Origin: an uncultured Lachnospiraceae bacterium
GTDB lineage: Bacteria; Bacillota_A; Clostridia; Lachnospirales; Lachnospiraceae
Assembly (NCBI GenBank): GCA_949957035.1
Contig: CATLIP010000014.1
Coordinates: 1-17,017 of the forward strand
DNA length: 17,017 nt
Direction of reading: 5' to 3'
This document shows positions 821 through 17,017 of this stretch, piece after piece. The notes under the pieces were generated by a model. It made no database searches and had not been told where the DNA came from. It saw only the letters and a list, made by a program, of their open reading frames with translations. The position numbers were made by a program, and so were the translations under genes. Position 1 is the first letter of the stretch. Each line of letters opens with the position of its first letter.

Positions 821-1879
821 ATGGAAGATACAATTAAGAAAGATATCTGTTCCTTCAACTATGGCGAATTGTCGGAAGAGATTCGAGCAATGGGCGAAAA
901 GCCCTTTCGCAGCCGTCAGCTCTATGAATGGCTCCATGTGAAATTGGCCGGCAGTTTTGAAGAGATGACGAATCTTTCGAAGAGTTTACGGGAAAAATTA
1001 TCCCGGGAATATAGGATTCCCAAGGTAGAACCGGTGGAGCGCCAGATTTCCAGGGTGGATTCAACGGAGAAGTTCCTGTTTGAGCTTTTAGACGGGAACA
1101 TGATTGAAAGCGTTCTGATGCGTCATCCTTATGGGAATTCAGTCTGTGTCTCGTCTCAGGCCGGATGCCGGATGGGGTGCCGCTTCTGTGCATCTGCCAT
1201 TGGCGGGCTTAAGCGGAACCTCGCTTCGTCGGAGATGTTAAGGCAGATATACCAGATTCAGAGAATAACGGAAGAACGGGTTTCTCAGATAGTAGTGATG
1301 GGAACAGGGGAGCCCCTTGACAATTACGAGAACTTTGTCAGATTTATACGGATGGTGAGTGATGAACATGGCCTGAACATCAGCCAGAGAAATATCACAG
1401 CCTCCACCTGCGGTATTGTTCCTAACATGCACAGGCTTGCATCAGAGGGCCTGCAGATTACATTGGCTTTATCTCTCCACGGCTCCAGTCAGGAGAAGCG
1501 CAGAAGGCTGATGCCTGTGGCTGATAAGTATGAGCTTTGCGAAGTGTTAGAAGCCTGCGACGACTATTTTCAAAAGACAGGACGAAGAGTGACGTTTGAG
1601 TACAGTCTGATAGAAGGTATAAACGACAAACCGGAGGATATTAGGGAGCTTACGGCGCTCCTGAAACCAAGGAACTGCCATCTTAATGTTATCCCTGTGA
1701 ATCCGGTCAGGGAGCGGGATTACCGCAAACCCGACAGGAAAAATGCAGGTGTATTTAAAAATAAACTTGAAAAAAATGGAATTAATGTTACTATAAGAAG
1801 GGAAAGAGGCTCAGATATAGACGGAGCATGCGGCCAGCTTAGAAGGCGGTATATGGCCGCAGACGGGAGAACCAGATGA
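821..1879 (+). CDS. rlmN: Dual-specificity 23S rRNA/tRNA adenine-C2 methyltransferase RlmN (radical SAM)
   Basis: RlmN methylates C2 of A2503 in 23S rRNA and of A37 in some tRNAs by a radical-SAM, Cys-relay mechanism. The 352-residue protein has the usual family length. An N-terminal substrate-binding region (about 1-90, with KPFRSRQLYEWL) precedes the radical-SAM core. The 4Fe-4S motif is CRMGCRFC, with Cys116, Cys120 and Cys123. The SAM-binding GTGEPLDN follows, then SLHGSS, and the C-terminal catalytic Cys337 lies in DIDGACGQLR. The ATG at 821 follows the rsmB stop by 2 bp, with a modest AGGAAAG upstream. Its 3' end overlaps the phosphatase start by 4 bp (ATGA), indicating translational coupling. 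Nothing is missing; this looks like a normal functional gene. Confidence 0.97.
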   Translation: MEDTIKKDICSFNYGELSEEIRAMGEKPFRSRQLYEWLHVKLAGSFEEMTNLSKSLREKLSREYRIPKVEPVERQISRVDSTEKFLFELLDGNMIESVLMRHPYGNSVCVSSQAGCRMGCRFCASAIGGLKRNLASSEMLRQIYQIQRITEERVSQIVVMGTGEPLDNYENFVRFIRMVSDEHGLNISQRNITASTCGIVPNMHRLASEGLQITLALSLHGSSQEKRRRLMPVADKYELCEVLEACDDYFQKTGRRVTFEYSLIEGINDKPEDIRELTALLKPRNCHLNVIPVNPVRERDYRKPDRKNAGVFKNKLEKNGINVTIRRERGSDIDGACGQLRRRYMAADGRTR

Positions 1880-2616
1880 AGATATTTGCAATGACTGATG
1901 TAGGGAGAAAGCGTGAAGTCAATCAAGACTATGTATATGTGACGGACAAGCCTATCGGACCGTTTCCGAATCTTCTTGCGGTTGCCGATGGAATGGGCGG
2001 CCACAAGGCGGGAGATTTTGCGTCAAAATATACGGTGGGTGTGTTGCGGGAGGAGTTAGAGAGTACCCCCCTAAACAAACCGGAAGAGATTCTGCGCAAT
2101 GTAGTCAGCATTGCAAATGATAAGTTAATCGAAGTCGCATCTGCGGACATCAAGTTGGAAGGAATGGGCACCACTCTGGTAGTAGCTACGGTTGTTGGCA
2201 ATACGCTGTATTTTGCCAATGTGGGAGACAGCCGGCTCTATCTGATTAACGAGAAGATTCGCCAGATATCCAAAGACCATTCTCTGGTGGAGGAGATGGT
2301 AAGGCTTGGCGGTATCAAAGCGGAGGAGGCCAGAAACCATCCGGACAAGAACATCATTACAAGGGCAATCGGCGTGAAGGAAGGCGTAGAGGCAGATATC
2401 TATGAATTTCGGCTCAAGAAGGGGGACATCATTTTGATGTGTACGGATGGCCTGAGCAATATGGTGGAGGATGAAGATATGTTTGATATCGTGCGGGGCT
2501 CCAGAGATGTAGTGGAGGCTGTGCAGATGTTGATTGAGAAGGCAAACAGCAATGGCGGGAGAGATAACATAGGGGTTGTTATAGCAGAGCCACTTGCAGA
2601 TGAGGTGAGTGTATGA
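1876..2616 (+). CDS. prpC: PP2C-family Ser/Thr protein phosphatase (PrpC/Stp)
   Basis: This is a cytosolic metal-dependent PPM phosphatase that reverses phosphorylation by the adjacent PASTA kinase. The 246 residues match the bacterial Stp/PrpC length. Metal-site motifs are in order: RxxNQD with Asp18, ADGMGGHKAG with Asp38 and Gly39, MGTT near 97-100, VGDSR near 116-120, CTDGLSN with Asp191, and GGRDN with Asp230. It has no signal peptide or membrane segment. The start overlaps the end of rlmN by 4 bp and the stop overlaps the prkC start by 4 bp, so phosphatase and kinase are probably made at a fixed ratio. The pairing is the standard Firmicute arrangement (PrpC-PrkC in B. subtilis, Stp-Stk elsewhere). 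Known functions of the pair include control of cell wall growth, translation GTPases and germination or dormancy; the targets here are unknown. Confidence 0.96.
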   Translation: MKIFAMTDVGRKREVNQDYVYVTDKPIGPFPNLLAVADGMGGHKAGDFASKYTVGVLREELESTPLNKPEEILRNVVSIANDKLIEVASADIKLEGMGTTLVVATVVGNTLYFANVGDSRLYLINEKIRQISKDHSLVEEMVRLGGIKAEEARNHPDKNIITRAIGVKEGVEADIYEFRLKKGDIILMCTDGLSNMVEDEDMFDIVRGSRDVVEAVQMLIEKANSNGGRDNIGVVIAEPLADEVSV

Positions 2617-4769
2617 GTGTGAAAGATGGTATTATTCTTGGAAAACGTTATGAGGTGCTCAGTAAGGTAGGGGCAGGCGGAATGGCGGATGTGTACAAGG
2701 GCCGTGACCGCATGCTGAACCGTTACGTGGCAATCAAGGTTTTGAAGAAGGAATACAAAGAAGACGAGAATTTTGTGCGGAAGTTCCGCTCGGAAGCTCA
2801 GGCGGCGGCAGGCTTGATTCATCCGAACATTGTCAATGTATATGATGTGGGGGAAGACCGTGGCCTGTACTATATGGTCATGGAGTTGGTCGAGGGAATT
2901 ACGCTGAAAGAATATATTGAGAAAAAGGGCAGGTTATCCCATAAAGAGGTCATCAGTATTGCGATTCAGATGTGTACAGGCGTTGGAATCGCGCATGCGG
3001 CAGATATTATTCACAGAGATATCAAACCGCAGAACATTATCATCTCCAAGGACGGTAAGGTGAAAGTGACAGATTTCGGGATTGCCAAGGCCACCACGTC
3101 CAATACTGTCAGCTCCAATGCCATGGGCTCTGTCCACTACACATCGCCGGAGCAGGCAAGGGGCGGATTCAGCGACCAGAGAAGCGATATCTATTCTGTG
3201 GGTATCACCTTGTACGAGATGGTGACAGGAGAGGTGCCTTTTGACGGCGAGTCTACGGTATCTGTTGCGATTAAGCATCTGCAGGAGGAGATTACGCCGC
3301 CTTCTGAGCTGGTACCGGATATTCCCTACAGCTTGGAACGAATCATTCTGAAATGTACCCAGAAGAACAGTGAACGGAGATATCGGAATACGGATGAACT
3401 GATTCAGGATTTAAAACGTTCTCTGGTGGATCCCAATGGAGATTTTGTGGTGATTCCGCCTCTTCGAAGTGCGAATACGGTCATCATTACCGGCGATGAG
3501 CTGGATGATATCCGAAGCTATGATGATGACGATTATGATGATTACGGTGATGATGATTACGGCCATGATGACAGATATGGCGGGCATGACGACTATGACG
3601 ATCATGACGATTACGGCGACGATGATTATGACAGAGACCGTGATTATGATGATGACTATGACAGAGACCATGACGACTACGATGACGACGAATTCGATGA
3701 TGACGACTATGATTCACGCGGAAGGCGGCGCAGGGATTCTGACGATGTGAATCCCCGTATGAACAAGGTTATGAAGATTTTGACCATTGTGGTTGCGGTT
3801 ATCATAGTATTTATCCTGATTTTTGTGATTGGAAAGGCGGCAGGATTATTCAAGTTTACGCCGAGCCTTAAGACGGAGACCAAGGAAGAGGACCAGGTCA
3901 AGGTTCCGAATGTGGTAGGAAAGACAGAGGAGGAAGCGAAGAAAGAGCTGAACAAGATGGGACTTGGATTCAAGGTGAAGGAGCGTAAGGAATCCAACAA
4001 GTATGAGGAAGGAACGGTTTCGGAACAGAAGACAGAAGCAGGTAAGAAGGTAGATAAGAATACAACGATTCTGGTGGTAGTAAGCTCTGGACTTATAGGC
4101 AAAGAGATTGAGGTGCCGGACGTCAAAGGACATAATGAGAGTGAGGCGCACAGCATGCTGACTCAGGCAGGTTTCAAGAAGATTACCTCAGATTTTGTGT
4201 ATAGTGATACTGTGGCAGAGGGGGATGTCATCGAGACGACCCCGGCCGCACATGCGAAGGCGACGGAAGAGACTCAGATTGTAATGAAGGTCAGCAAGGG
4301 AGCAGAGAAGAAGACGGTTCCGAACGTAATCGGATATGCAGATGCAGATGCACAGAATGCGATTATAGCGGCAGGGCTTAATGTGGGAACTGTGACATAC
4401 GACTATCATGACAGCGTTCCGGAAGGCCAGGTGGTATCTCAGAGTGTGGACGGCGGCAAGAAGGTATCTGCGGGTACGTCCATTGGATTGGTAGTAAGTC
4501 AGGGCCCGAAACCGCCGGAGCAGGTAGGAGTGCCGCCGGTAACCAATACCTCCTTGGAGAATGCAAAGCAGCTTCTTTACAGCGCGGGACTTCAGACGGG
4601 AAACGTGTCTTATCAGAACCATGATTCGGTTCCGTCGGGGTATGTCATTAGCTGTGAGCCTGGCGTGGGCAGCAGTGTGGATGAAGGGACGTCGGTAAAT
4701 CTTATCGTCAGTCAGGGACCGGCGCAGTCGATTCCGAACCCGGGCGATGACGTATCGCCTGAGGAGTAG
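2613..4769 (+). CDS. prkC: PASTA-domain Ser/Thr kinase PrkC, with four PASTA repeats and an Asp/Tyr-rich linker
   Basis: This is a membrane-spanning Hanks-type kinase that senses muropeptide or lipid II outside and phosphorylates proteins inside. The cytoplasmic kinase domain (about 10-275) has the glycine loop GAGGMADVY, Lys42 in VAIK, HRDIKPQN with catalytic Asp136, DFG at 154-156 and SPE at 178-180, so it should be active. Residues 304-367 form an acidic linker, followed by a basic RGRRRR patch, a transmembrane helix (about 387-407) and four extracellular PASTA repeats (about 429-493, 499-563, 567-631, 638-702). Each repeat opens with a VPxV/VPPV-type motif and ends with a V(S/V)S(Q/S/K)G-type strand. 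The stop is followed 8 bp later by rsgA; the RsgA orthologue CpgA is a PrkC substrate in B. subtilis. The unusual part is the long Asp-rich juxtamembrane linker. Confidence 0.97.
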   Translation: MSVKDGIILGKRYEVLSKVGAGGMADVYKGRDRMLNRYVAIKVLKKEYKEDENFVRKFRSEAQAAAGLIHPNIVNVYDVGEDRGLYYMVMELVEGITLKEYIEKKGRLSHKEVISIAIQMCTGVGIAHAADIIHRDIKPQNIIISKDGKVKVTDFGIAKATTSNTVSSNAMGSVHYTSPEQARGGFSDQRSDIYSVGITLYEMVTGEVPFDGESTVSVAIKHLQEEITPPSELVPDIPYSLERIILKCTQKNSERRYRNTDELIQDLKRSLVDPNGDFVVIPPLRSANTVIITGDELDDIRSYDDDDYDDYGDDDYGHDDRYGGHDDYDDHDDYGDDDYDRDRDYDDDYDRDHDDYDDDEFDDDDYDSRGRRRRDSDDVNPRMNKVMKILTIVVAVIIVFILIFVIGKAAGLFKFTPSLKTETKEEDQVKVPNVVGKTEEEAKKELNKMGLGFKVKERKESNKYEEGTVSEQKTEAGKKVDKNTTILVVVSSGLIGKEIEVPDVKGHNESEAHSMLTQAGFKKITSDFVYSDTVAEGDVIETTPAAHAKATEETQIVMKVSKGAEKKTVPNVIGYADADAQNAIIAAGLNVGTVTYDYHDSVPEGQVVSQSVDGGKKVSAGTSIGLVVSQGPKPPEQVGVPPVTNTSLENAKQLLYSAGLQTGNVSYQNHDSVPSGYVISCEPGVGSSVDEGTSVNLIVSQGPAQSIPNPGDDVSPEE
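3522..3713 (+). repeat. Low-complexity GAY/TAY codon tract encoding the Asp/Tyr-rich linker of PrkC
   Basis: These 64 codons (residues 304-367) contain about 38 Asp and 11 Tyr, with scattered Gly, His and Arg. They are made of imperfect repeats of units such as DDYDD, GDDDY and DRD. Codons alternate GAT and GAC irregularly, so this is not a clean microsatellite, but it is still the most repetitive DNA in the window. It separates the kinase domain from the transmembrane helix, where most PrkC proteins have a shorter Lys/Arg/Ser-containing linker. Long open frames on both strands here are by-products of the repeat composition and are not genes. Confidence 0.9.
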
Positions 4770-4805
4770 AGGCGCTTATGCAGGGGAAGATTGTGAAAGG
4801 AATTG

Positions 4806-4839
4806 CCGGATTCTACTACGTACATGTAGTAGAATCCGG
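4806..4839 (+). repeat. Perfect 14-bp inverted repeat (hairpin) inside the 5' coding region of rsgA
   Basis: The left arm CCGGATTCTACTAC (4806-4819) and right arm GTAGTAGAATCCGG (4826-4839) are exact reverse complements around a 6-base loop, GTACAT. Two further G-U pairs can extend the stem to 4804-4841. It spans codons 10-21, starting 28 bases after the A of the start codon. No U-run follows, so it is not a classical intrinsic terminator. In mRNA it would be a very stable structure within the first ribosome's path. A role in slowing early elongation, protein binding or RNase processing is inference only. Confidence 0.85.
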
Positions 4840-5644
4840 TGTTTATGAATGTAAGGCAAAAGGTATCTTCCGCAAGGAGAGAGTGAAACCCTTAGTGGGA
4901 GATAGAGTAGAGATTGAAGCGATTAAGGAAGAGGAAAAGATCGGCAATATTATTCGGATTTTTCCCAGAGACAACGAACTGATTCGGCCGGCGGTCGCCA
5001 ATATTGACCAGGCATTAGTAGTATTTGCCGTGTTGCGTCCCGCGCCGCACTATAACCTTTTGGACCGATTTCTGGTTATGATGGAGCGAAAAAGGATTCC
5101 TTCGATATTATGCTTTAATAAAGAAGATCTAGCAGAGCAGTCCCAGCTTGATGAGCTTGAGGCAATCTACGGAAAATGTGGGTATCCTTTCATATTTACC
5201 AGTGCGTTGGAAGGGAAGAATGTGGAATGTGTCAGGGAGATTTTAAAAGGAAAGACGACGGCCATAGCCGGACCCTCCGGAGTTGGAAAGTCCTCTCTGA
5301 TTAATATGCTTACGCCGGAGGCGAATATGGAGACCGGGGATATCAGCCGGAAGATTGAGCGGGGAAAGCATACTACCAGACATTCAGAATTATTTCCTAT
5401 TGACAGGGATTCCTACATTATGGATACACCGGGGTTTAGTTCTCTGTATGTCAATGATTTTGAGAAGGAAGAGCTGAGACAGTAATTTCCTGAATTTACA
5501 GAATATGAAGGACTGTGCCGGTTTAAGGGATGCGACCATGTACATGAGCCCGGATGCAGGGTCAAAGAGGCGGTAGAGGAGGGAAAGATTCATCCTATCC
5601 GATATCAGAACTATAGGGAGATGTATGAAGAGTTGAAGAATAGA

Positions 5645-5650
5645 AGGAGG
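5645..5650 (+). promoter_or_regulatory. Ribosome binding site of rpe (decides the start codon)
   Basis: AGGAGG at 5645-5650 lies 8 bases before the ATG at 5659. An in-frame TTG at 5653 would leave only 2 bases, so ATG 5659 is the real start of rpe. The site lies inside the last codons of the interrupted rsgA frame, so rpe would normally be read by ribosomes finishing rsgA. Confidence 0.85.
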
Positions 5651-5658
5651 TATTGAAT

Positions 5659-6321
5659 ATGAATTACATATTAGCCCCGTCGATTCTGGCGGCAGATTTT
5701 AAGGAGCTTGGCAGAGAGATTAGGACTACAGAGGAAAATGGAGCCGCGTATCTTCATTTTGATGTGATGGACGGTATGTTCGTCCCGAGTATCTCTTTTG
5801 GTATGCCGGTGCTGGCGTCCATTCAGGGAGCGACGAGCCAGGTGATGGATGTACACCTGATGGTACAGGAACCCATCCGGTATATAGAGGATTTTAAGAA
5901 AGCCGGAGCAGACCTTGTGACGGTTCATATGGAGGCCTGTGAGGATGTGAGTGCGACTATAGAGAAGATTCGTTCCTGCGGCATGAAGGCAGGGCTGTCT
6001 ATCTGTCCGGAGACGGAAGGCGAAGCTGTAAGAGACTATCTGAAAGATGTGGATATGGTTCTGGTCATGAGTGTTCATCCGGGATTTGGCGGTCAGAAGT
6101 TTATTATGGATTCATTGGACAAGATTCGTTTGATTCGTCAGATGGCCGAGAAGCAAGGGGTATCCTTGGATATAGAAGTGGACGGGGGAATCTATCTGTC
6201 CAATGTACGTGAAGTTCTTGATGCGGGAGCCAATGTTATTGTTGCGGGGTCTGCTGTATTTGGAGGAGACCCGGGGAAGAACACCAGAGATTTTATGGAG
6301 ATTTTGAGAGAATATGAGTAA
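5659..6321 (+). CDS. rpe: Ribulose-phosphate 3-epimerase
   Basis: This TIM-barrel, metal-dependent enzyme interconverts ribulose 5-phosphate and xylulose 5-phosphate in the pentose phosphate pathway. The 220-residue protein has the usual length. Seen in order are the N-terminal APSIL, His33 and Asp35 in HFDVMDG, His66 in DVHLMV, MSVHPGFGGQ (about 137-146) and Asp175 in EVDGGI. The ligands His33, Asp35, His66 and Asp175 match the family metal site, with Asp35 and Asp175 acting as the acid-base pair. ATG 5659 is preferred over an upstream TTG because of the AGGAGG spacing. The gene follows rsgA, as in B. subtilis, and its last 8 bp overlap thiN. Loss of full rsgA translation upstream could reduce its expression if the two are coupled. 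Confidence 0.97.
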   Translation: MNYILAPSILAADFKELGREIRTTEENGAAYLHFDVMDGMFVPSISFGMPVLASIQGATSQVMDVHLMVQEPIRYIEDFKKAGADLVTVHMEACEDVSATIEKIRSCGMKAGLSICPETEGEAVRDYLKDVDMVLVMSVHPGFGGQKFIMDSLDKIRLIRQMAEKQGVSLDIEVDGGIYLSNVREVLDAGANVIVAGSAVFGGDPGKNTRDFMEILREYE

Positions 6322-6997
6322 GAGAAGTATCATTATCAGCGGCGGGGATTTGGATGAAGCGTTGACACTGACTGTCCTTAAAGAACAGAATGACAGGTGT
6401 GTGATAGCAGTAGACCGTGGTGTGGAATTTCTATATCATCACCGGATTATGCCGGATTATATCGTAGGAGATTTCGACAGCACCAGGGAGGATATTCGGA
6501 ATTATTATAAGAATGAGACGAATGTTCCGGTGAGGGAGTATAATCCGGTAAAGGATGCCTCCGATACGGAGATTGCAATTCGGCTCGCTATGACGTTAGG
6601 TTGTAAGGAGTTAATAATTCTTGGCGCCACAGGCGGTAGGATTGACCATCTATGGGCAAATGTTCAGAGTCTTATGATTCCCTTCAAGGCCGGGATTGAT
6701 GCAAGAATTCTGGATTGTCAGAATTTGATTAGAATTATTGGCGGTGGAGAGACTCATATTCAAAGAGGTAAGGCATTCGGGGCATATTTTTCTGTATTCC
6801 CGTTGGGGGAGGACGTCTTTGGTTTCAATATCAGCGGGGCAAAGTATCCATTGAAAAACCATACGCTGACACCCTACAACAGCCTGTGTGTGAGCAATCA
6901 GATTGCGGAAGGCTTTGATGAAGCTGTCATCAGTTTCCCATCGGGACGGGTAATCTTGATGGAGACAAGGGATAAGGATGATAGGTATCATGCATAA
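6314..6997 (+). CDS. thiN: Thiamine pyrophosphokinase
   Basis: The enzyme transfers pyrophosphate from ATP to thiamine, giving thiamine diphosphate. The 227-residue protein has a Rossmann-like N-terminal catalytic domain and a C-terminal beta-sandwich thiamine-binding domain. Diagnostic motifs are VGDFDS (about 51-56), KDASDTEIAI (about 80-89) and LGATGGRIDH (about 103-112), followed by the SGAKYPL and VSNQI segments of the binding domain. Its start overlaps rpe by 8 bp in another frame, so it is translationally coupled. The rpe-thiN pairing next to prkC-rsgA is the normal Firmicute order (yloS in B. subtilis). Transketolase uses thiamine diphosphate in the same pathway as Rpe, which may explain the pairing; that link is inference. 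No thiamine riboswitch is visible upstream. Confidence 0.94.
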   Translation: MSKRSIIISGGDLDEALTLTVLKEQNDRCVIAVDRGVEFLYHHRIMPDYIVGDFDSTREDIRNYYKNETNVPVREYNPVKDASDTEIAIRLAMTLGCKELIILGATGGRIDHLWANVQSLMIPFKAGIDARILDCQNLIRIIGGGETHIQRGKAFGAYFSVFPLGEDVFGFNISGAKYPLKNHTLTPYNSLCVSNQIAEGFDEAVISFPSGRVILMETRDKDDRYHA

Positions 6998-7036
6998 AGA
7001 AGAGGACTAAAAAGACAATATAGGAGAGTAGTGAAA

Positions 7037-8137
7037 ATGAAACTAGGGATTGTAGGATTACCTAATGTAGGAAAGAGTACGCTGTTCAATTCATTGACGA
7101 AGGCGGGAGCGGAGTCGGCGAATTACCCGTTCTGCACCATCGACCCCAACGTAGGGGTCGTCACCGTACCAGACGAGAGGCTGAACGTGTTAGGCGAGAT
7201 GTACCACACGAAGAAAATCATACCGGCTGCCATTGAATTTGTGGATATTGCAGGACTGGTGAAGGGAGCTTCTAAGGGCGAGGGCCTTGGCAACCAGTTT
7301 TTGGCAAATATCCGGGAAGTGGACGCCATCGTCCATGTAGTCCGGTGTTTCGAGGACAGCAACATTGTCCATGTGGATGGGAGCATCAACCCGCTGCGGG
7401 ATATCGAGACGATTAATCTGGAACTGATTTTTTCCGATTTGGAGATATTGGAGCGCAGGATTTCCAAGACGGCAAAGGTGGCGCGCAACGACAAGGCGGC
7501 GGCAAAGGAGCTGGCGTTGTTGGAGAAGATTAAGGCACATCTGGAAGAAGGAAAACTTGCAAAAACATTTACAGGTGCAGAAGATGAGGAAGAGGAGTCT
7601 TGGCTCTTGGGATATAACCTGCTTACTTACAAACCTGTCATCTATGCTGCGAATGTGGCGGAGGACGACCTTGCCGACGACGGCGGGACCAATGAGGGCG
7701 TACAGGCTGTGCGGGATTATGCCAAAGAGGAGCTAAGCGAAGTGTTCGTCGTGTGTGCCCAGATTGAGCAGGAGATTGCGGAGCTTGAGGACGATGAGAA
7801 GAAGATGTTCTTAGAAGACCTTGGATTATCCGAGTCAGGGCTTGAGAAGCTGATTAAGGCAAGTTATCGGCTTTTAGGGCTGATCAGTTACCTGACGGCG
7901 GGAGAGCCTGAGGTGCGCGCATGGACGATTACGGAAGGGACGAAGGCCCCTCAGGCGGCAGGGAAGATTCACTCTGATTTTGAGAGAGGATTCATCCGGG
8001 CAGAGGTGGTATCCTATGACGATTTGATGGAATGTAAAAGCCACAGTGCGGCGAAGGAGAAGGGACTTATCAGGCTGGAAGGCAAGGACTATGTTGTGAA
8101 GGACGGGGACATTATGCTGTTCCGGTTCAACGTATAG
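7037..8137 (+). CDS. ychF: Redox-regulated Obg-family ATPase YchF/OLA1
   Basis: YchF is a conserved TRAFAC-class P-loop NTPase that prefers ATP, binds ribosomes and is linked to stress and translation fidelity. The 366-residue protein begins MKLGIVGLPNVGKST with the P-loop near 7-14. It continues with the Obg-type G3 segment DIAGLVKGASKGEGLG and NVAED, which lies where the adenine-preferring NxxE motif is expected. It ends in a TGS-like domain (about 280-366, with AWTITEGTKAPQAAG and HSDFERGFIRAEV). I place the start at ATG 7037, which gives the family-standard N-terminus; an in-frame GTG at 7031 would add two residues. AGGAG at 7022-7026 is 10 bases before the ATG. It lies 39 bp after thiN with no visible terminator, so it is probably co-transcribed. 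Confidence 0.97.
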   Translation: MKLGIVGLPNVGKSTLFNSLTKAGAESANYPFCTIDPNVGVVTVPDERLNVLGEMYHTKKIIPAAIEFVDIAGLVKGASKGEGLGNQFLANIREVDAIVHVVRCFEDSNIVHVDGSINPLRDIETINLELIFSDLEILERRISKTAKVARNDKAAAKELALLEKIKAHLEEGKLAKTFTGAEDEEEESWLLGYNLLTYKPVIYAANVAEDDLADDGGTNEGVQAVRDYAKEELSEVFVVCAQIEQEIAELEDDEKKMFLEDLGLSESGLEKLIKASYRLLGLISYLTAGEPEVRAWTITEGTKAPQAAGKIHSDFERGFIRAEVVSYDDLMECKSHSAAKEKGLIRLEGKDYVVKDGDIMLFRFNV

Positions 8138-8155
8138 GAAGGAAGTAATGGCATC

Positions 8156-9019
8156 ATGCATAGAACCATAGATTTTCCCAATATCGGAATTCATCTGAAG
8201 TCGGTAGGCGACCACATCACGGTATTTGGGTTTGAGATTGCTTATTATGGTATTATCATTGGGATTGGAATCCTGACCGGGATTCTGATTGCGGCATTAG
8301 AGGCAAGACGTACGAAACAGAACCCGGAGGATTATTATGATTTGGCAATCTACGCTGTGATATTTGCGATAATCGGGGCAAGGATTTATTATGTGATTTT
8401 CTCGTGGGACATGTATAAAGATAATCTCTTGAGTATCTTCAATATTCGGGAAGGCGGGCTTGCCATTTACGGAGGGGTCATTGCCGCGGTTATCACGGTT
8501 TTTGTGTTCGCCCATGTGAAGCATCTGTCTGCTCCTCTTTTACTGGATACGGCAGGGCTTGGCCTGGTGGCAGGGCAGATGATTGGGCGATGGGGCAATT
8601 TCTTTAACAGGGAGGCCTTCGGGGAATATACGGACTGGCTTCTTGCCATGCGCCTGCCGGTGGATGCGGTGCGGGGGTCGGATATCACGGAGCTTATGCG
8701 GGAGCATATGGAGACGAAGGATGGGGTTTCCTATATTCAGGTACATCCTACGTTTCTCTATGAGTCCCTGTGGTGCCTGCTGATTCTGATTTTATTGCTT
8801 TTGTACCGTAAGCATAAGAAGTTCAACGGAGAGATATTTCTGATGTATCTGGCGGGGTACGGTTTCGGGCGTTTCTGGATTGAGAGGCTTAGGACAGACC
8901 AATTGCTGCTTCCGGGCATCGGGTTTCCGGTATCCCAGCTTTTGGCAGGAATCCTGGTGGTGGCGTCGGCTGCGGTGATTGCATATAACTGGCGGAAAAC
9001 AAGATATTTTGATTCATAG
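8156..9019 (+). CDS. lgt: Prolipoprotein diacylglyceryl transferase
   Basis: Lgt is the integral membrane enzyme that moves diacylglycerol from phosphatidylglycerol to the lipobox cysteine of prolipoproteins, the first step of lipoprotein maturation. The 287-residue protein has about seven hydrophobic segments, for example near 28-48, 65-82, 103-120, 128-143 and 207-217, plus two nearer the C-terminus. The family signature GRWGNFFNREAFG (about 144-156), the GGLAIYGG loop (100-107), HPTFLYES and the C-terminal GFGRFWIERLRTD are all present. The ATG at 8156 is 10 bases after AAGGAAG. It starts 18 bp after ychF, consistent with one transcript. It is complete, with no missing motif. Confidence 0.97.
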   Translation: MHRTIDFPNIGIHLKSVGDHITVFGFEIAYYGIIIGIGILTGILIAALEARRTKQNPEDYYDLAIYAVIFAIIGARIYYVIFSWDMYKDNLLSIFNIREGGLAIYGGVIAAVITVFVFAHVKHLSAPLLLDTAGLGLVAGQMIGRWGNFFNREAFGEYTDWLLAMRLPVDAVRGSDITELMREHMETKDGVSYIQVHPTFLYESLWCLLILILLLLYRKHKKFNGEIFLMYLAGYGFGRFWIERLRTDQLLLPGIGFPVSQLLAGILVVASAAVIAYNWRKTRYFDS

Positions 9020-9046
9020 ACGGAAAGAGTCATTTTGGGGAAAAGA

Positions 9047-9568
9047 ATGGAATATTATAAAGATGGTAAGATTACAATCCGCGATTTGGAAGAGGCGGAT
9101 GCAGAGTTGATTGCAGGCGGGGAGCGAAAGCAGGGGTGGGACGCGTCGGCAGACAAGTATCACACCCGTTTGAAAGACGCGGCCCAAGGCAGGGCGGTGG
9201 CGCTGGCAGCCGAGTATGAGGGCTGTGTTGCAGGATACATCAATGTCTATTTAGAATGTACCGGAGGAGCGTATCAGGGAAAGGGATTACCGGAGATAGT
9301 GGATTTCGGAGTCCTCCAAAAGTACAGGAGGCATGGGATTGGGACTAAGCTCATGGACACGGCGGAAAAGATTGCTGCAAGATATGGAGATACCGTCTGT
9401 CTGGGGGTAGGGCTTCATCAGGGATATGGGAGCGCCCAGAGGATGTATGTAAAACGGGGCTATGTTCCGGACGGTTCCGGGGCGTGGTATCAGGATAAAA
9501 TCTGCGAACCTTACGGCGAATGCCGGAACGATGATGATTTGGTGTTATATTTTTCTAAAGAACTATAA
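9047..9568 (+). CDS. GNAT-family N-acetyltransferase of unknown substrate
   Basis: This is a single-domain acetyl-CoA-dependent acyltransferase of 173 residues. The acetyl-CoA pyrophosphate-binding motif is RRHGIGTKLMDTAEK (the Q/R-x-x-G-x-G/A class), preceded by the usual beta-4 strand IVDFGVLQKY. The C-terminal part, with LGVGLHQGYGSAQRMYVKRGY, has the typical Asn/Gln-Ala-x-x-x-Tyr-x-x-x-Gly-Tyr layout. The substrate cannot be read from sequence. I start it at ATG 9047, with purine-rich GGGGAAAAG just upstream; a TTG at 9035 is in frame and would add four residues. It is the last gene before a strong terminator, so it probably closes the housekeeping transcript. Confidence 0.88.
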   Translation: MEYYKDGKITIRDLEEADAELIAGGERKQGWDASADKYHTRLKDAAQGRAVALAAEYEGCVAGYINVYLECTGGAYQGKGLPEIVDFGVLQKYRRHGIGTKLMDTAEKIAARYGDTVCLGVGLHQGYGSAQRMYVKRGYVPDGSGAWYQDKICEPYGECRNDDDLVLYFSKEL

Positions 9569-9569
9569 G

Positions 9570-9643
9570 GTCTGCCAAGGGCATGAAATTTCTGTGAATA
9601 TTGCGGGAATCATGCTCTTGGCAGACTTATTTTACGTATTTTT
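9570..9643 (+). terminator. Intrinsic terminator after the GNAT gene, possibly bidirectional
   Basis: The left arm at 9570-9586 (GTCTGCCAAGGGCATGA) pairs with the right arm at 9610-9626 (TCATGCTCTTGGCAGAC) with one G-U pair, giving a 17-bp stem with a 23-base loop. A T-rich run follows (9627-9643, ending in TTTTT). It begins 2 bases after the GNAT stop. A shorter T-rich stretch also follows on the minus strand, so it could have served the minus-strand hicB gene whose remnant faces it. Confidence 0.9.
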
Positions 9644-9766
9644 CTATAAAGCGAGTTTATATAGAGCAAGCTGGTTCAGGCTTACGCCTTCTTTCTCCGC
9701 TTCTATTGCTAATCGCTGATGCAATGATTTAGGCAATCTTACAACAAATTTGCCACCCAATTCGAG
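9644..9766 (-). pseudogene. hicB: HicB-family antitoxin remnant (C-terminal ribbon-helix-helix part only)
   Basis: Read on the minus strand, the frame gives GKFVVRLPKSLHQRLAIEAE and then KEGVSLNQLALYKLAL before TAG (complement 9644-9646). This is the recognisable HicB C-terminal DNA-binding domain, with the RLPxxLHxxLxxxA and GxSLNQL motifs. Full HicB proteins are around 100 residues or more, with an N-terminal partial RNase-H-like domain; that part is absent, because an in-frame stop lies about seven codons upstream (complement 9788-9790). There is no good start codon or ribosome binding site (only a TTG at complement 9758-9760) and no HicA toxin nearby. It is most likely the decayed end of a toxin-antitoxin locus. 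Confidence 0.75.
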
Positions 9767-9806
9767 TAAATAAAAAAGAATAAAATTTTATAAATTACAG
9801 ATAACT

Positions 9807-9851
9807 AAAGTACCCTCAGCGTATCCTTTTCATTTACGCTGAGGGTACTTT
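9807..9851. repeat. Perfect 17-bp inverted repeat, possible bidirectional terminator
   Basis: AAAGTACCCTCAGCGTA (9807-9823) and TACGCTGAGGGTACTTT (9835-9851) are exact reverse complements around an 11-base loop. The A-run and T-run at the stem ends are typical of bidirectional terminators, but no long U-tract follows on either side. It lies where the missing 5' half of the HicB gene would have been. It could instead be an excision or insertion footprint, or a dispersed repeat of this genome. Confidence 0.75.
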
Positions 9852-9906
9852 CACATATGGAAAGAAGTAACCTGTAATTGTGCAACATGACCAAAAATTT
9901 ATCTCA

Positions 9907-9933
9907 AAAACACGCCTCAAACTGGTGTGTTTT
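9907..9933. repeat. Short inverted repeat upstream of the nan promoter
   Basis: AAAACACGCC (9907-9916) and GGTGTGTTTT (9924-9933) pair over 10 bp with one G-T, around a 7-base loop. It lies 8 bp before the first operator-like dyad. It may be a weak terminator or a protein site; nothing decides between these. Confidence 0.5.
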
Positions 9934-9941
9934 GAAAATGA

Positions 9942-9955
9942 TGAAAGAAGTTTCA
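9942..9955. promoter_or_regulatory. Operator-like dyad 1 upstream of the nan promoter
   Basis: TGAAAGAAGTTTCA is a perfect dyad of 5-bp half sites around 4 bases (6-bp half sites if flanking A/T is counted). It ends 16 bp before the -35 box. Such TGAAA/TTTCA dyads are plausible for RpiR-family regulators, and one is encoded in this operon. It also resembles a CcpA cre site except that the central CG is missing. Confidence 0.5.
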
Positions 9956-9971
9956 TAATATCACAAATCTA

Positions 9972-10000
9972 TTGAAAATAAATTCATAAATGCGTATACT
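9972..10000 (+). promoter_or_regulatory. Sigma-A promoter of the sialic acid operon
   Basis: The -35 TTGAAA (9972-9977) and -10 TATACT (9995-10000) are separated by exactly 17 bp. Transcription would start near 10007, giving a leader of about 55 bases before the nanE ATG at 10062. It is the best promoter match seen in the window and follows the terminator and junction region directly. Confidence 0.75.
9973..9986. promoter_or_regulatory. Operator-like dyad 2 overlapping the -35 box
   Basis: TGAAAATAAATTCA has the same 14-bp architecture as the dyad at 9942-9955, with one half-site mismatch. The two start 31 bp apart, about three helical turns, so they face the same side of the DNA. Overlap with the -35 box would let a bound protein block RNA polymerase. 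Confidence 0.45.
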
Positions 10001-10061
10001 GTGTGGCAGAAACCAGGAAACAAACAGGAGCACAGACATTCTACGGGAAAGGAGCAAGCGT

Positions 10062-10751
10062 ATGAAAGAATGTGTAGAACAATTAAAGGGCGGGCTGGTG
10101 GTATCCTGCCAGGCATTGCCGGATGAGCCGCTCCATTCGTCTTTTATCATGGGACGGATGGCATTGGCGGCAGAACAAGGAGGGGCGAAAGGTATCCGGG
10201 CGAACACGAAGGAAGACATCCGTGAGATACAGTCCCAGACGGGTCTGCCGATTATCGGAATCGTAAAGCGGGACTACGATGACAGCGGCGTCTACATCAC
10301 CCCCACGATGAAAGAGGTCGATGAACTGATGGAAGTCAAGCCGGAAATCATCGCCATGGATGCTACCGGAGGATTAAGGCCGGGTAATCTGCCGCTGGAT
10401 ACATTTTTCGCACAGGTGAAAGAAAAGTATCCAGAGCAACTCTGGATGGCAGACTGTTCCACCGTCGAGGAGGCTCTTCATGCAGACGAATTAGGGTTTG
10501 ATTTTATCGGGACGACTATGGTCGGATACACAGACCAGAGCAGGGGAGACAGGATTGAGGCAAATGATTTCGAGATTATTCGGAAGATACTTGGACAGGC
10601 CAAACACCGGGTCATCGCAGAGGGCAACATCGACACGCCCGCGAAAGCAAAACGGGTCATTGAGCTTGGCTCTTTCTGTGTGGTGGTAGGCTCCATCATT
10701 ACAAGGCCCCAGCTCATCACGAAAGCATTTGCAGACAGCCTTGCAAGATAA
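10062..10751 (+). CDS. nanE: N-acetylmannosamine-6-phosphate 2-epimerase
   Basis: NanE converts ManNAc-6-P to GlcNAc-6-P in cytosolic sialic acid catabolism. It is a TIM-barrel protein of 229 residues, the family length. Recognisable segments are VSCQALPDEPLHS (about 14-26), GAKGIRAN, IGIVKRDY with the likely catalytic Lys69, AMDATGGLRP, MADCSTVEEA and IAEGNI with Glu187. Lys69 and Glu187 correspond to the Lys-Glu catalytic pair known in Clostridium perfringens NanE. An in-frame ATG at 9990 overlaps the -10 box and is rejected; ATG 10062 has AAAGGAG (10048-10054) 7 bases upstream. It is the first gene of the operon, although its reaction comes late in the pathway. Confidence 0.96.
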   Translation: MKECVEQLKGGLVVSCQALPDEPLHSSFIMGRMALAAEQGGAKGIRANTKEDIREIQSQTGLPIIGIVKRDYDDSGVYITPTMKEVDELMEVKPEIIAMDATGGLRPGNLPLDTFFAQVKEKYPEQLWMADCSTVEEALHADELGFDFIGTTMVGYTDQSRGDRIEANDFEIIRKILGQAKHRVIAEGNIDTPAKAKRVIELGSFCVVVGSIITRPQLITKAFADSLAR

Positions 10752-10768
10752 GGCAGACATCAGGATTC

Positions 10769-10797
10769 ATGACATAAAATAACAAAAAGCGTATACC
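10769..10797 (+). promoter_or_regulatory. Possible secondary promoter before nanA
   Basis: ATGACA (10769-10774), a 17-bp spacer and TATACC (10792-10797) lie in the 72-bp gap between nanE and nanA. The -10 context GCGTATAC is shared with the main nan promoter. The predicted start near 10804 leaves room for the AAGGAG ribosome site. The -10 is imperfect, so this remains tentative. Confidence 0.35.
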
Positions 10798-10823
10798 AAT
10801 AAGAATAAAAAGGAGAAGAAACA

Positions 10824-11744
10824 ATGAGAGATTTAAACAAGTACAAAGGAGTAATCCCGGCATTTTACGCATGTTATGACAAGGAAGGAAACGTAAGCCC
10901 CGAAGGAGTCCAGGCATTGACTCAGTATTTTGTAGAAAAGGGCGTGAAAGGACTCTATGTGAATGGTTCCTCCGGAGAATGCATCTATCAGAGTGTGGAA
11001 GACCGGAAGATGATACTGGAAAATGTCATGAAAGCAGCAAAAGGTAAGCTGACAATTATCGCCCATGTGGCTTGCAACAATACCAAGGACAGCATGGAAC
11101 TTGCCAGACATGCCCAGAGTCAGGGAGTAGATGCAATCGCTGCAATCCCGCCAATCTATTTCCGTCTGCCGGAGCATGCCATTGCAAAATACTGGAATGA
11201 TATAAGTTCTGCTGCGCCAGATACCGATTTCGTCATCTACAACATTCCCCAGCTTGCGGGCGTTGCGCTCACCATGGGTCTGTTTGAGGAAATGCGTAAG
11301 AACCCCAAGGTCATCGGTGTAAAGAACTCCTCCATGCCAGTACAGGATATCCAGATGTTCAAACAGGCGGCGGGCGAGGACTACATCATTTTCAACGGCC
11401 CGGACGAGCAGTTCATCAGCGGACTTGCAATCGGGGCAGAAGGCGGCATCGGCGGAACCTACGGGGCGATGCCGGAACTGTTCCTGAAATTGGAAGAGTA
11501 TGTGAAGTCAAATGAGATGGCAAAAGCAAGAGAACTCCAGTATACGGTCAATGAGATTATCTACAAGCTGTGTTCCGCAAAGGGAAATATGTACGGAGTC
11601 ATCAAGGAAGTCTTAAAACTGAATGAAGGCCTTGAGCTTGGCGGGGTGAGAGCGCCGCTGCCGTCCCTGGCAGACAGCGACATGGCTGTAGTGGAAGAAG
11701 CCGCACAGATGATCCGCAGTGCCAAGGAAAGCTATATTGCTTAA
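10824..11744 (+). CDS. nanA: N-acetylneuraminate lyase (sialic acid aldolase)
   Basis: NanA is a DapA-superfamily class I aldolase that splits N-acetylneuraminate into ManNAc and pyruvate through a Schiff base. The 306-residue protein has the carboxylate-binding GSSGE at 48-52, the active-site Tyr139 in YNIP and the Schiff-base Lys167 in VIGVKNSS. These positions are within two residues of E. coli NanA (Tyr137, Lys165). GAEGGIGGTYGAMPELF in the C-terminal half is a typical lyase segment. The ribosome site AAGGAG lies about 8 bases before the ATG. DapA relatives can act on other keto acids, but its place between nanE and a transporter in a complete nan operon supports sialic acid. Its 3' end is followed by an imperfect copy of itself. 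Confidence 0.95.
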   Translation: MRDLNKYKGVIPAFYACYDKEGNVSPEGVQALTQYFVEKGVKGLYVNGSSGECIYQSVEDRKMILENVMKAAKGKLTIIAHVACNNTKDSMELARHAQSQGVDAIAAIPPIYFRLPEHAIAKYWNDISSAAPDTDFVIYNIPQLAGVALTMGLFEEMRKNPKVIGVKNSSMPVQDIQMFKQAAGEDYIIFNGPDEQFISGLAIGAEGGIGGTYGAMPELFLKLEEYVKSNEMAKARELQYTVNEIIYKLCSAKGNMYGVIKEVLKLNEGLELGGVRAPLPSLADSDMAVVEEAAQMIRSAKESYIA

Positions 11745-11777
11745 TTCGCAGTGCCAAGGAGAAACTATATCGCTTGA
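11715..11777 (+). repeat. Imperfect tandem duplication of the nanA 3' end
   Basis: Copy 1 (11715-11744) covers the last nanA codons and the stop. Copy 2 (11747-11777) repeats it with a few substitutions and one extra base. Both begin CGCAGTGCCAAGGA and end with a TATAT(T/C)GCTT(A/G)A-type segment. The period is 32 bases, so the copies are in different frames. Copy 2 read in its own frame would still encode a similar tail, RSAKEKLYRLND, before a stop. Confidence 0.8.
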
Positions 11778-11784
11778 ACGACTA

Positions 11785-11844
11785 AGTGTGCTGACTGCAT
11801 TATATCCTGCAAAGTTTCGCTAGATATAATGCAGAAAGCACACT
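11785..11844 (+). repeat. Large intercistronic hairpin between nanA and the symporter gene
   Basis: The left arm 11785-11806 (AGTGTGCT, GA, CTGCATTATATC) pairs with the right arm 11823-11844 through 8 bp and 12 bp, interrupted only by a 2x2 mismatch. The loop is 16 bases. No U-tract follows (the next bases are GGGGATTG), so it is not an obvious terminator. It is a candidate for RNase III processing or for protecting the nanE-nanA message 3' end. Confidence 0.8.
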
Positions 11845-11888
11845 GGGGATTGAGAATATACGTACTCCCCGAGTCTGGGATTTGGGGA
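11845..11888 (+). promoter_or_regulatory. Possible alternating stems in the symporter leader
   Basis: GGGGA (11845-11849) can pair with TCCCC (11866-11870), and the same TCCCC can instead pair with GGGGA (11884-11888). The two pairings exclude each other. The last element lies 9 bases before the AGGAGGA ribosome site. Each stem is only 5 bp, so this is a weak structural suggestion. Confidence 0.3.
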
Positions 11889-11910
11889 ATACAAATGAGG
11901 AGGATAGAAA

Positions 11911-13416
11911 ATGCAAGGATTTACAGTTATTGATTTAATTATATTAATCGTTTATCTGGCAGCGGTATTATTTGCCGGACTCCATTTCGCAAAAAAAGAT
12001 ATGAAGGGAAAAGAATATTTCAAAGGCGACGGAACCGTGCCGTGGTGGGTGACTTCCGTATCCATCTTTGCGACCCTGTTAAGCCCCATTTCCTTTCTGT
12101 CCCTTGCGGGCAACTCCTATGCCGGGACTTGGATTATGTGGTTTGCACAGTTGGGCATGCTGCTTGCCATCCCGCTGACTATCAAGTTTTTCCTGCCGAT
12201 CTACAGCAAACTGGATATTGATACGGCGTACCATTATCTGGAGCTGAGGTTCGGGAGCAAAGGGCTTAGGGTGTTGGGGGCCGTGATGTTCATCATTTAT
12301 CAGGTAGGGCGTATGTCCATTATCATGTACCTTCCCTGTATGGTATTGGGAAGCCTGACCGGAATCAACGTGAACGTATTGATTATCATCATGGGTGTGA
12401 TTGCAATCATTTATTCATACACAGGTGGATTGAAATCCGTACTCTGGACAGACTTTATCCAAGGCTCAGTGCTCCTGATTGGCGTCACCTTCTCACTGGT
12501 GTTCCTGCTGGCACATATTGACGGAGGAATCGGTGCGGTATTTTCCACATTGACCACAGAGCACAAATTCCTTGCCACAGACCAGCCAATCTTTAATATT
12601 AACATTTTCAAAGACAGCGTATTCATCTTGATTGTGGGCGCAGGTTTCAACACTATGGGCTCCTATGTGTCAAGCCAGGATATTGTGCAGCGTTTTACGA
12701 CGACGACAGATACCAAGAAGTTAAATAAAATGATGCTGACCAACGGTGCGCTTTCTATCTTTATTGCGACTGTGTTCTACCTGATTGGAACCGGGTTGTA
12801 TGTGTTCTATCAGCAGAATGCGCTGCCTCCGGCAGCGGCGCAGGATCAGATTTTTGCATCCTACATTGCCTTTGAGCTTCCGGTGGGCATTACGGGACTG
12901 CTTCTGGCGGCTATCTATGCGGCGTCCCAGTCTACGCTTTCCACAGGGCTTAACTCCGTTGCGGCAAGCTGGACGCTGGATATACAGGCACGTCTGACGA
13001 AGAAAGAGCTGAGCTTCGAGAAACAGACGAAGATTGGACAGTACGTGTCTTTGATCGTAGGAATTTTTTCTATCGTGGTAGCGATGGTCCTGGCGAACGG
13101 AGGCGTCAAGTCTGCATACGAGTGGTTCAACGGATTTATGGGACTGGTTCTTGGCATCCTGATCGGAACCTTTATCCTTGGGGCGTTTACAAAGGTGGCA
13201 AATACCTTCGGGGCAACGCTGGCATTTATCGCGGCATCCCTTGTCATGGTGGGAATCAAGTATTTTGTTCCGGCCGAGGCCGTTTCCATCTGGTCTTACT
13301 CGCTGATATCCATTGCAGTATCCTTGGCGGTGGGGATTCCGGCAAGTATCATTTACCGGAAGGCCAAGGGCGATACTTCCGTACCAGCGCCTAATACGAC
13401 GATTTACAAAAATTAG
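11911..13416 (+). CDS. Sodium:solute symporter (SSS family), probable sialic acid transporter (SiaT-like)
   Basis: This polytopic membrane protein of 501 residues belongs to the LeuT-fold SSS family and uses a sodium gradient for uptake. It has about 13 hydrophobic segments, beginning at 7-25. Family features include SVSIFATLLSPISFLSLAGNSYAG (partly unwound TM1-type region), GRMSIIMYLP, YTGGLKSVLWTDFIQ (the sodium symporter signature area) and SSQDIVQRF. The substrate cannot be read from sequence. The place between nanA and yhcH/nanK strongly suggests N-acetylneuraminate or a close derivative, as for SiaT of Proteus or Staphylococcus. AGGAGGA at 11898-11904 precedes the ATG by 6 bases. No sialic acid ABC, TRAP or MFS transporter is present, so this is the only importer in the cluster. 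Confidence 0.9.
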   Translation: MQGFTVIDLIILIVYLAAVLFAGLHFAKKDMKGKEYFKGDGTVPWWVTSVSIFATLLSPISFLSLAGNSYAGTWIMWFAQLGMLLAIPLTIKFFLPIYSKLDIDTAYHYLELRFGSKGLRVLGAVMFIIYQVGRMSIIMYLPCMVLGSLTGINVNVLIIIMGVIAIIYSYTGGLKSVLWTDFIQGSVLLIGVTFSLVFLLAHIDGGIGAVFSTLTTEHKFLATDQPIFNINIFKDSVFILIVGAGFNTMGSYVSSQDIVQRFTTTTDTKKLNKMMLTNGALSIFIATVFYLIGTGLYVFYQQNALPPAAAQDQIFASYIAFELPVGITGLLLAAIYAASQSTLSTGLNSVAASWTLDIQARLTKKELSFEKQTKIGQYVSLIVGIFSIVVAMVLANGGVKSAYEWFNGFMGLVLGILIGTFILGAFTKVANTFGATLAFIAASLVMVGIKYFVPAEAVSIWSYSLISIAVSLAVGIPASIIYRKAKGDTSVPAPNTTIYKN

Positions 13417-13437
13417 TGTTGAGAAGGAGAAAAGAGT

Positions 13438-13887
13438 ATGATATTCGGCAATATTTTGAACCTCAAGGACTATTTCTTTCTGGAAGACGGAGTATTCGAG
13501 TGCTTCCGGTATGCAAAGGAGCATAATTTGGACGAATACGAGAAGGGAAGCCATGAAATAGACGGAAAACGGCTGTTCGTCAATATCGTGGAATACGAGA
13601 CGGTGACAGCCAAGGAACGTTTCTGGGAAGCACACAAGGAATATCTGGATATCCATCTGATGCTTGAGGGCGAAGAGCAGATTGATATGAATTTCCTCCC
13701 GAATATGGACGTAAAGGACTATGTGCCGCAGGATGATTTCCTGCCGATGGAGGGCGGGAAGAACGGTTCCGTTATACTGCGGAAAGGGGATTTCCTGATT
13801 TGTTATCCAAGCGACGCCCACCGTACGGCGGTTGCTGTGGAAGAATCGGAGAAAATCAAGAAAGCGATTTTCAAAGTGCGTATTTAA
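13438..13887 (+). CDS. yhcH: YhcH/YjgK/YiaL (NanQ-type) sugar anomerase-family protein
   Basis: This is a 149-residue cupin-like protein of the YhcH/TabA family. E. coli YhcH (NanQ) is a metal-dependent anomerase that supplies the open-chain form of N-acetylneuraminate to the aldolase. Seen here are AKERFWEAHKEYLDIH (about 58-73), with Glu and His residues expected to bind metal, LEGEEQID, and the C-terminal GDFLICYPSDAHR with another conserved His. AAGGAG at 13424-13429 lies 8 bases upstream of the ATG, and the gap after the symporter is 21 bp. The association with nan genes supports a sialic acid rather than a biofilm (TabA) role. The catalytic claim is by family; the sequence shows only conserved candidate ligands. 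Confidence 0.92.
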   Translation: MIFGNILNLKDYFFLEDGVFECFRYAKEHNLDEYEKGSHEIDGKRLFVNIVEYETVTAKERFWEAHKEYLDIHLMLEGEEQIDMNFLPNMDVKDYVPQDDFLPMEGGKNGSVILRKGDFLICYPSDAHRTAVAVEESEKIKKAIFKVRI

Positions 13888-13906
13888 TGAATGAAAATGA
13901 ATGAAA
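13887..13906 (+). repeat. Two tandem copies of a 10-bp repeat after yhcH
   Basis: ATGAATGAAA occurs twice back to back, beginning at the last base of the yhcH stop codon. The function is unknown; it contains TGAAA half-sites like those at the nan promoter but no TTTCA partner. Confidence 0.6.
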
Positions 13907-13907
13907 T

Positions 13908-13974
13908 CTGACTGGATGTGTGTTACTGTTTACACCTACGGCGTTCACAGTAACGGATGTGTACATCCGGTCAG
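13908..13974 (+). repeat. Two-tier hairpin between yhcH and the ROK kinase gene
   Basis: An outer stem pairs 13908-13919 (CTGACTGGATGT) with 13963-13974 (ACATCCGGTCAG), 12 bp with one G-U. An inner stem pairs 13922-13929 (GTTACTGT) with 13947-13954 (ACAGTAAC), 8 bp perfect with a 17-base loop. An asymmetric internal bulge joins them. No U-run follows. It fills much of the 149-bp gap and may set mRNA stability or segment expression within the operon. Confidence 0.75.
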
Positions 13975-14036
13975 CGTATGACGTTTGTATGGATTGCGGA
14001 AATGATGGGAATATATTATAATAAAGAGGTACAGAT

Positions 14037-14930: not shown

Positions 14931-14945
14931 AAGAAAAGAATAAGG

Positions 14946-15800: not shown

Positions 15801-15824
15801 GAAACGTCGTATGGAGGTAAGTTT

Positions 15825-17003: not shown

Positions 17004-17017
17004 GGGATGCGATGCCT

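Follow-up and report, generated by a model that had tools for sequence, protein, structure and literature searches.

The closest described relatives of the locus analyzed here are the ribosome assembly factors RsgA/YjeQ of Escherichia coli and CpgA (YloQ) of Bacillus subtilis. According to the E. coli study (PMC4436671), the zinc ligands of YjeQ are Cys297, Cys302, His305 and Cys310, and the C-terminal region was truncated by a stop at Leu278 (M1), which removes the whole zinc domain, or at Phe287 (M2), which removes the zinc loop. In the same study, binding of the Leu278 and Phe287 truncations to the mature 30S subunit was down four- and five-fold, respectively, and binding to the immature 30S subunit about two-fold; 30S subunits caused no marked stimulation of their GTPase activity, and the proteins lost stability at higher temperature. 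The residue of B. subtilis CpgA that PrkC phosphorylates is Thr166 (PMC6449344). Earlier work cited there proposed that this phosphorylation raises GTPase activity and ribosome association, and the study itself saw no condition under which it made a difference (PMC6449344).

We compared these systems with the rsgA locus of the window, by which we mean the whole 17,017-nucleotide stretch analyzed, from a contig (CATLIP010000014.1) of an uncultured Lachnospiraceae bacterium. The gene order in the window was rsmB-rlmN-stp1-prkC-rsgA-rpe-thiN, followed by a gene that we take to be ychF and by lgt, which was named from relatives bearing it. The locus shares with the RsgA/YjeQ/CpgA (YloQ) systems the OB-fold, the circularly permuted GTPase domain, in-frame codons for the zinc domain and the order stp1-prkC-rsgA-rpe-thiN; it differs from them in its open frame, which is closed by a stop at codon 236 and does not reach the zinc domain. 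The frame as read (4778..5485, forward strand) encoded 235 residues with both N-terminal domains and ended in TAA exactly at 5483-5485 (forward strand), in the context CTGAGACAG TAA TTTCCTGAATTT. Translation from 4778 gave the 235 residues, the stop, a further 56 residues and a TGA at 5654-5656, which bears out the initial annotation both in ending the rsgA frame at this TAA and in describing the next 56 codons (the in-frame remainder, 5486..5656, forward strand) as open and carrying all four zinc ligands. Residues 1-235 scored 187.5 bits against TIGR00157, for which the cut-off is 100, and the frame matched PF16745 (70.2 bits) and PF03193 (193.6 bits), which we take to be the OB-fold and the circularly permuted GTPase domain, respectively. 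The downstream 56 residues scored 52.1 bits against the C-terminal end of the TIGR00157 model, the two pieces matching it in the correct order. The codons for Cys247, Cys252, His254 and Cys260 were all downstream of the TAA, and the zinc ligands are thus encoded solely beyond codon 236. The intact relative P0002 matched the solved structure 1t9h over residues 2-290. The 56-codon tail is the rest of rsgA and not a chance open frame, since it matched the family and kept every one of the 22 conserved columns considered below. The TAA is an ordinary stop here, because TAA closes 6 of the 17 window genes that were read, and also rsgA itself in some relatives (e.g. loci L007 and L008).

To place the stop among relatives we used a sample consisting of the best 80 of 506 rsgA loci from a scan of a species-genome collection, which by their titles come from Lachnospiraceae and similar gut bacteria, and 30 loci from a second search of 98 genomes, 94 of which matched, some of the weaker matches being other GTPases. 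A frame of 285 to 300 residues was present in 111 of 112 relative loci. The 112 loci represented 98 distinct rsgA genes, of which 97 read through the place of codon 236. The sole exception was L064 (positions 1740-2618 of that locus), in the draft genome of an uncultured Mediterraneibacter, where rsgA had a TAG at codon 52, was otherwise open and carried a sense codon at the place of codon 236. L064 therefore resembles the window in that one in-frame stop interrupts a gene that is open elsewhere, but the stop itself, TAG at codon 52 versus TAA at codon 236, is not shared. Thus the alignment of related rsgA genes, a check that had been proposed for this locus, revealed no stop at the codon-236 place among the 98 distinct genes, and no split rsgA form was found among the relatives examined. 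At the stop column, 100 rows of length 292 (duplicates counted) had Tyr in 68 cases, Cys in 21, His in 6 and Phe in 5; the initial annotation had given Tyr as the normal residue of the family, which holds for about two thirds of the rows and not for the remainder. The four zinc-ligand columns were invariant across the same 100 rows, duplicates again counted. The L068 gene (285 aa) had an altered C-terminal end that looks like a frameshift, and protein P0115 (250 aa) ended within the zinc domain, either by a stop or by the end of its contig. The protein search lists cluster representatives (P0001 stands for 2 sequences and P0002 for 11), and an intact copy from the same species could sit inside a cluster. 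For a base rate, 380 gene copies from the 80 named loci (rlmN, stp1, the front part of rsgA, rpe and thiN) were examined by tblastn, and two of them had a stop lying over 12 residues ahead of the query end. One was the L064 rsgA; the other was the L068 thiN at query residue 8, where the apparent stop may reflect an alignment running upstream of the true start.

We then assessed the constraint on the tail by counting the private changes of the window with L003 and L004 as references. The first 235 codons had 34 synonymous and 18 non-synonymous private changes, and the tail had 7 and 5, respectively. The corresponding tail counts in the intact relatives were 6 and 11 for L003 and 8 and 7 for L004; the tail of the window is no looser than theirs. 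All 22 tail columns that are conserved in at least 95% of 86 distinct 292-aa relatives were kept by the window, while neutral change over the whole private branch was expected to alter these columns about 11.7 times (observed 0, P about 8e-6). The 95% bound placed the age of the stop at less than about 26% of the private branch of the window. An old, drifting pseudogene, to which a premature stop in a conserved gene could point, is rejected because 0 changes were seen where 11.7 were expected. There was no relaxed constraint past the lesion, and we give this explanation the least weight of any considered here, a negligible one. The initial annotation had already argued against a drifted pseudogene and in favor of a very recent mutation or a sequencing error, and both points stand given the intact, constrained tail. 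This constraint is no argument for function of the tail in the window, since the same outcome is expected from a recent stop or an error.

Comparison with the nearest genome, G001, indicated that the window is a mosaic. Against G001 contig C13 the identity was 77% over positions 1-795 and 82% over 836-6980, while against contig C29 it was 99% over 7020-9756 and 98% over 9757-17017. The junction lies at the 5' end of ychF (7020..7170), where many differences from C29 up to 7063 give way to an exact run of 107 bases (7064-7170), so that identity steps at about 7064 from mostly 82% on the left to 98-99% on the right. Two proteins of the left half, RsgA and ThiN, were searched, and exact copies of the truncated RsgA (P0001) and of ThiN (P0121) each occurred on one contig, that of the window; its length of 17017 bases suggests that the window spans a contig in full. 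For Lgt, in the right half, 9 contigs carried the exact protein and 194 a form 99% identical to it. The RsgA of G001 (P0004) is intact and was found on 79 contigs. The window is therefore a rare lineage joined to a common one; the join was made either in assembly, at a conserved stretch, or by real recombination. The change of parent at about 7064 fits a misjoin; if it reflects homologous recombination instead, which it may, it would be uninformative about error. At columns invariant in all other taxa, odd residues numbered one in rlmN and none in rsmB, stp1, prkC, the front part of rsgA, rpe or thiN. We found no further lesions or excess errors in the left half (about 7 kb, rsmB to thiN), which argues against a badly error-ridden contig.

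That G001 is coherent, with an insert at the gap between thiN and ychF, is at least as likely as that it is a mixed bin, because P0004 occurred on 79 contigs, rsgA gave a single match and both contigs continue into other sequence. Upstream of ychF, G001 carries unrelated genes (locus L125, 3297-6568 and 7009-7677), presumably ATPase-like, DUF262-like and recombinase-like as judged by eye, and an element seems to have been placed between thiN and ychF. G001 also has about 385 extra bases at window position 9756/9757 (L125 27-411), holding most of a 117-aa frame (L125 171-524). The Stp1 protein of the window (1876-2616) was 99.6% identical to that of L003 and L004, with DNA identity of only about 91-92%; the other left-half proteins, unlike Stp1, were 76-90% identical.

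Taken at a probability of about 0.9, our reading is that the TAA is a sporadic single-base lesion in the otherwise ordinary rsgA of a Lachnospiraceae gut bacterium: either the consensus or the assembly of this one metagenomic contig is in error, or the strain has very recently acquired a nonsense mutation of its own. We favor it because 97 of 98 relatives read through the position and the remaining one has a sense codon there, because the changes in the tail are no looser than in intact relatives with all the conserved columns kept, and because the left half is otherwise intact, one odd residue having turned up over seven segments. Also in its favor are the finding of the exact RsgA and ThiN on one contig, as against 9 for Lgt, and the parent change. 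L064, with its single TAG in an open gene, is a parallel case. About half of the probability goes to error and most of the remainder to a mutation of this kind. Whether the mutation is real and fixed, such that the strain lives with an RsgA lacking the zinc domain after a recent loss of function, is a question on which we lean slightly toward no. The lesion is single and clean and its neighbors are intact; moreover, E. coli YjeQ truncations are reported to retain intrinsic GTP hydrolysis (PMC4436671), and B. subtilis without CpgA to grow, slowly (PMC6449344). Against a fixed mutation, the stop is absent from all relatives examined and was seen in a single contig that itself bears a sign of misjoining.

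Two other explanations would make the tail an expressed product. Reading through the TAA would yield a mixture of short and full-length RsgA, and the tail is indeed constrained as in relatives, but a recent stop accounts for this equally well. The stop has no counterpart in the relatives examined (a conserved stop with a constrained extension was seen in 0 of 98 distinct relative genes), and TAA is the very codon that ends 6 of the 17 window genes. We consider read-through very improbable. A split gene, in which the tail is translated on its own to give a free zinc domain, would agree with a tail that is open and complete; however, the first in-frame ATG, GTG or TTG of the tail is at residue 282, past all four ligands, the sole CTG ahead of them is at residue 246, and the relatives examined include no split form. 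This makes a split gene, to our mind, slightly less credible still. The suggestion in the initial annotation of an expressed two-part or read-through product was thus not supported, since the stop was seen in no relative examined and the tail offers ATG, GTG or TTG only from residue 282 on. Overall, the stop is ordinary in meaning, and the locus looks less like a new kind of gene than like a case of error or very recent mutation. A premature stop seen once, in a single metagenomic contig, does little to establish a new gene form, and this caution weighs more where the contig changes parent 1.6 kb away.

If the stop is real, translation would end ahead of the zinc domain and the OB-fold and GTPase domains would be retained. 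The numbering offset from the window to E. coli was 50 for the three zinc cysteines and 51 for the histidine. By the cysteine offset of 50, the stop corresponds to about E. coli residue 286 and adjoins the Phe287 truncation, so that the predicted product resembles M2; M1 and M2, however, were engineered and assayed, whereas the window protein is predicted and perhaps not real. By analogy with the E. coli truncations as described in PMC4436671, the truncated RsgA would be expected to have lower stability, to bind the mature 30S subunit weakly and to lose 30S-stimulated GTPase activity, which lends support to the earlier expectation of poor 30S binding without the zinc domain. An effect on PrkC signalling had also been suggested. 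The case for it is weak: Thr166 is outside the lost domain, and PMC6449344 found no condition in which its phosphorylation mattered. Ribosomes would halt 173 bases short of the rpe ATG (5659) and no longer 2 bases short of it, and coupling to rpe may loosen. If the stop is both real and fixed, the strain would be a naturally occurring counterpart of the truncated E. coli variants, and it could reveal whether cells can dispense with the zinc domain.

A feature that we consider to matter more than the stop, and to deserve its own follow-up, is a hairpin within the coding sequence of rsgA (codons 10-21; 4805..4840, forward strand). It has 14 perfect pairs and a 6-nt loop in the window, where the stretch encodes AGFYYVHVVESG, and up to 16 pairs including wobbles in relatives. 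We tested 68 distinct 45-base stretches by folding against codon-shuffled versions and found a mean z of -3.5; in 59 of the 68, the real codons were at least as stable as the most stable 5% of the shuffled versions. When whole genes from 18 taxa were scanned, only the scan windows at bases 15 and 30 stood out on average (mean z -3.6); no other had a mean below -0.92, with single taxa reaching -1.7 to -4.6 elsewhere. An intrinsic terminator was rejected, as no T-run followed the hairpin on either strand when read by eye, and so was a dispersed repeat, there being one place per genome at the sensitivity of the covariance model described below. A search of the whole window against Rfam gave no match at E values up to 1, and no title on an rsgA hairpin was found in the open-licence literature searched.

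The covariance model, built from 34 chosen rows, found one place per genome in 41 of 150 genomes of the same family (one genome per genus), the match in G033 being marginal (E 0.0075; locus L102). We fetched 30 of these 41 places and all 30 were inside rsgA, though these loci lean towards pairing since the model rewards it. In 50 rows, comprising the 34 chosen by us and 16 of the 30 model-found loci picked for new variants, 96.8% of pairs were standard, three pairs had changed on both sides and the covariation score was reached by 0 of 500 shuffles. Without such picking, standard pairs made up 97.1% in the 63 distinct rows of the hairpin group and 89.3% in all 78 distinct rows, which include those lacking the hairpin; pair 11-26 was broken in 19 of the 63. 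In an alignment of 83 rows, from which five loci with indels or odd loops were left out (L057, L077, L105, L107 and L112), 93.8% of pair cells were standard, as against 29-47% in slid versions and 93.0% in shuffles, which leave relatedness in place. In these 83 rows the number of pairs changed on both sides was unremarkable (119 of 500 shuffles reached the value), as was the number of further pair types (95 of 500), and some slid versions had more double-change cells. An RNAalifold consensus recovered 10 of the 16 pairs. Individual paired differences included C-G for A-U in L153, with Ala for Ser in the protein, and U-A for G-U in L151, L155 and L157, with Ser for Ala. L057 and L077 had an extra codon in the loop and kept a stem.

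We regard it as reasonably likely that the rsgA hairpin is a real cis-acting RNA element, new to Rfam and to the literature searched, to which the stop is incidental, and to a similar degree that codon choice and matched changes have maintained it in a large group of Lachnospiraceae. The main alternative is formation of the palindrome by template switching in replication. If the hairpin is indeed such an element, many gut bacteria would have RNA control within the coding sequence of a ribosome assembly factor. The hairpin might govern how fast RsgA is made, for instance by slowing ribosomes just after initiation, or how fast the stp1-prkC-rsgA-rpe-thiN message is processed. Among 40 further places picked from the search of 98 genomes, most of them more distant, three were below z -2.5 and the mean was -0.63. 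Two more distant genes, L171 and L099, had unbroken predicted stems at the same place, but the register and the residues differed: a stretch within the codons for the variable part of the protein is predicted to pair with the GFYY codons. Given these two predicted stems, the selected feature may be the hairpin rather than the peptide.

Two other repeats were noted in the window. Positions 11785-11844 hold an imperfect 29-bp palindrome with partial copies at at least 7 other places in G001, i.e. a dispersed repeat, and positions 13921-13958 hold an inverted repeat, with a similar stretch at one other place in G001 and at two in G010.
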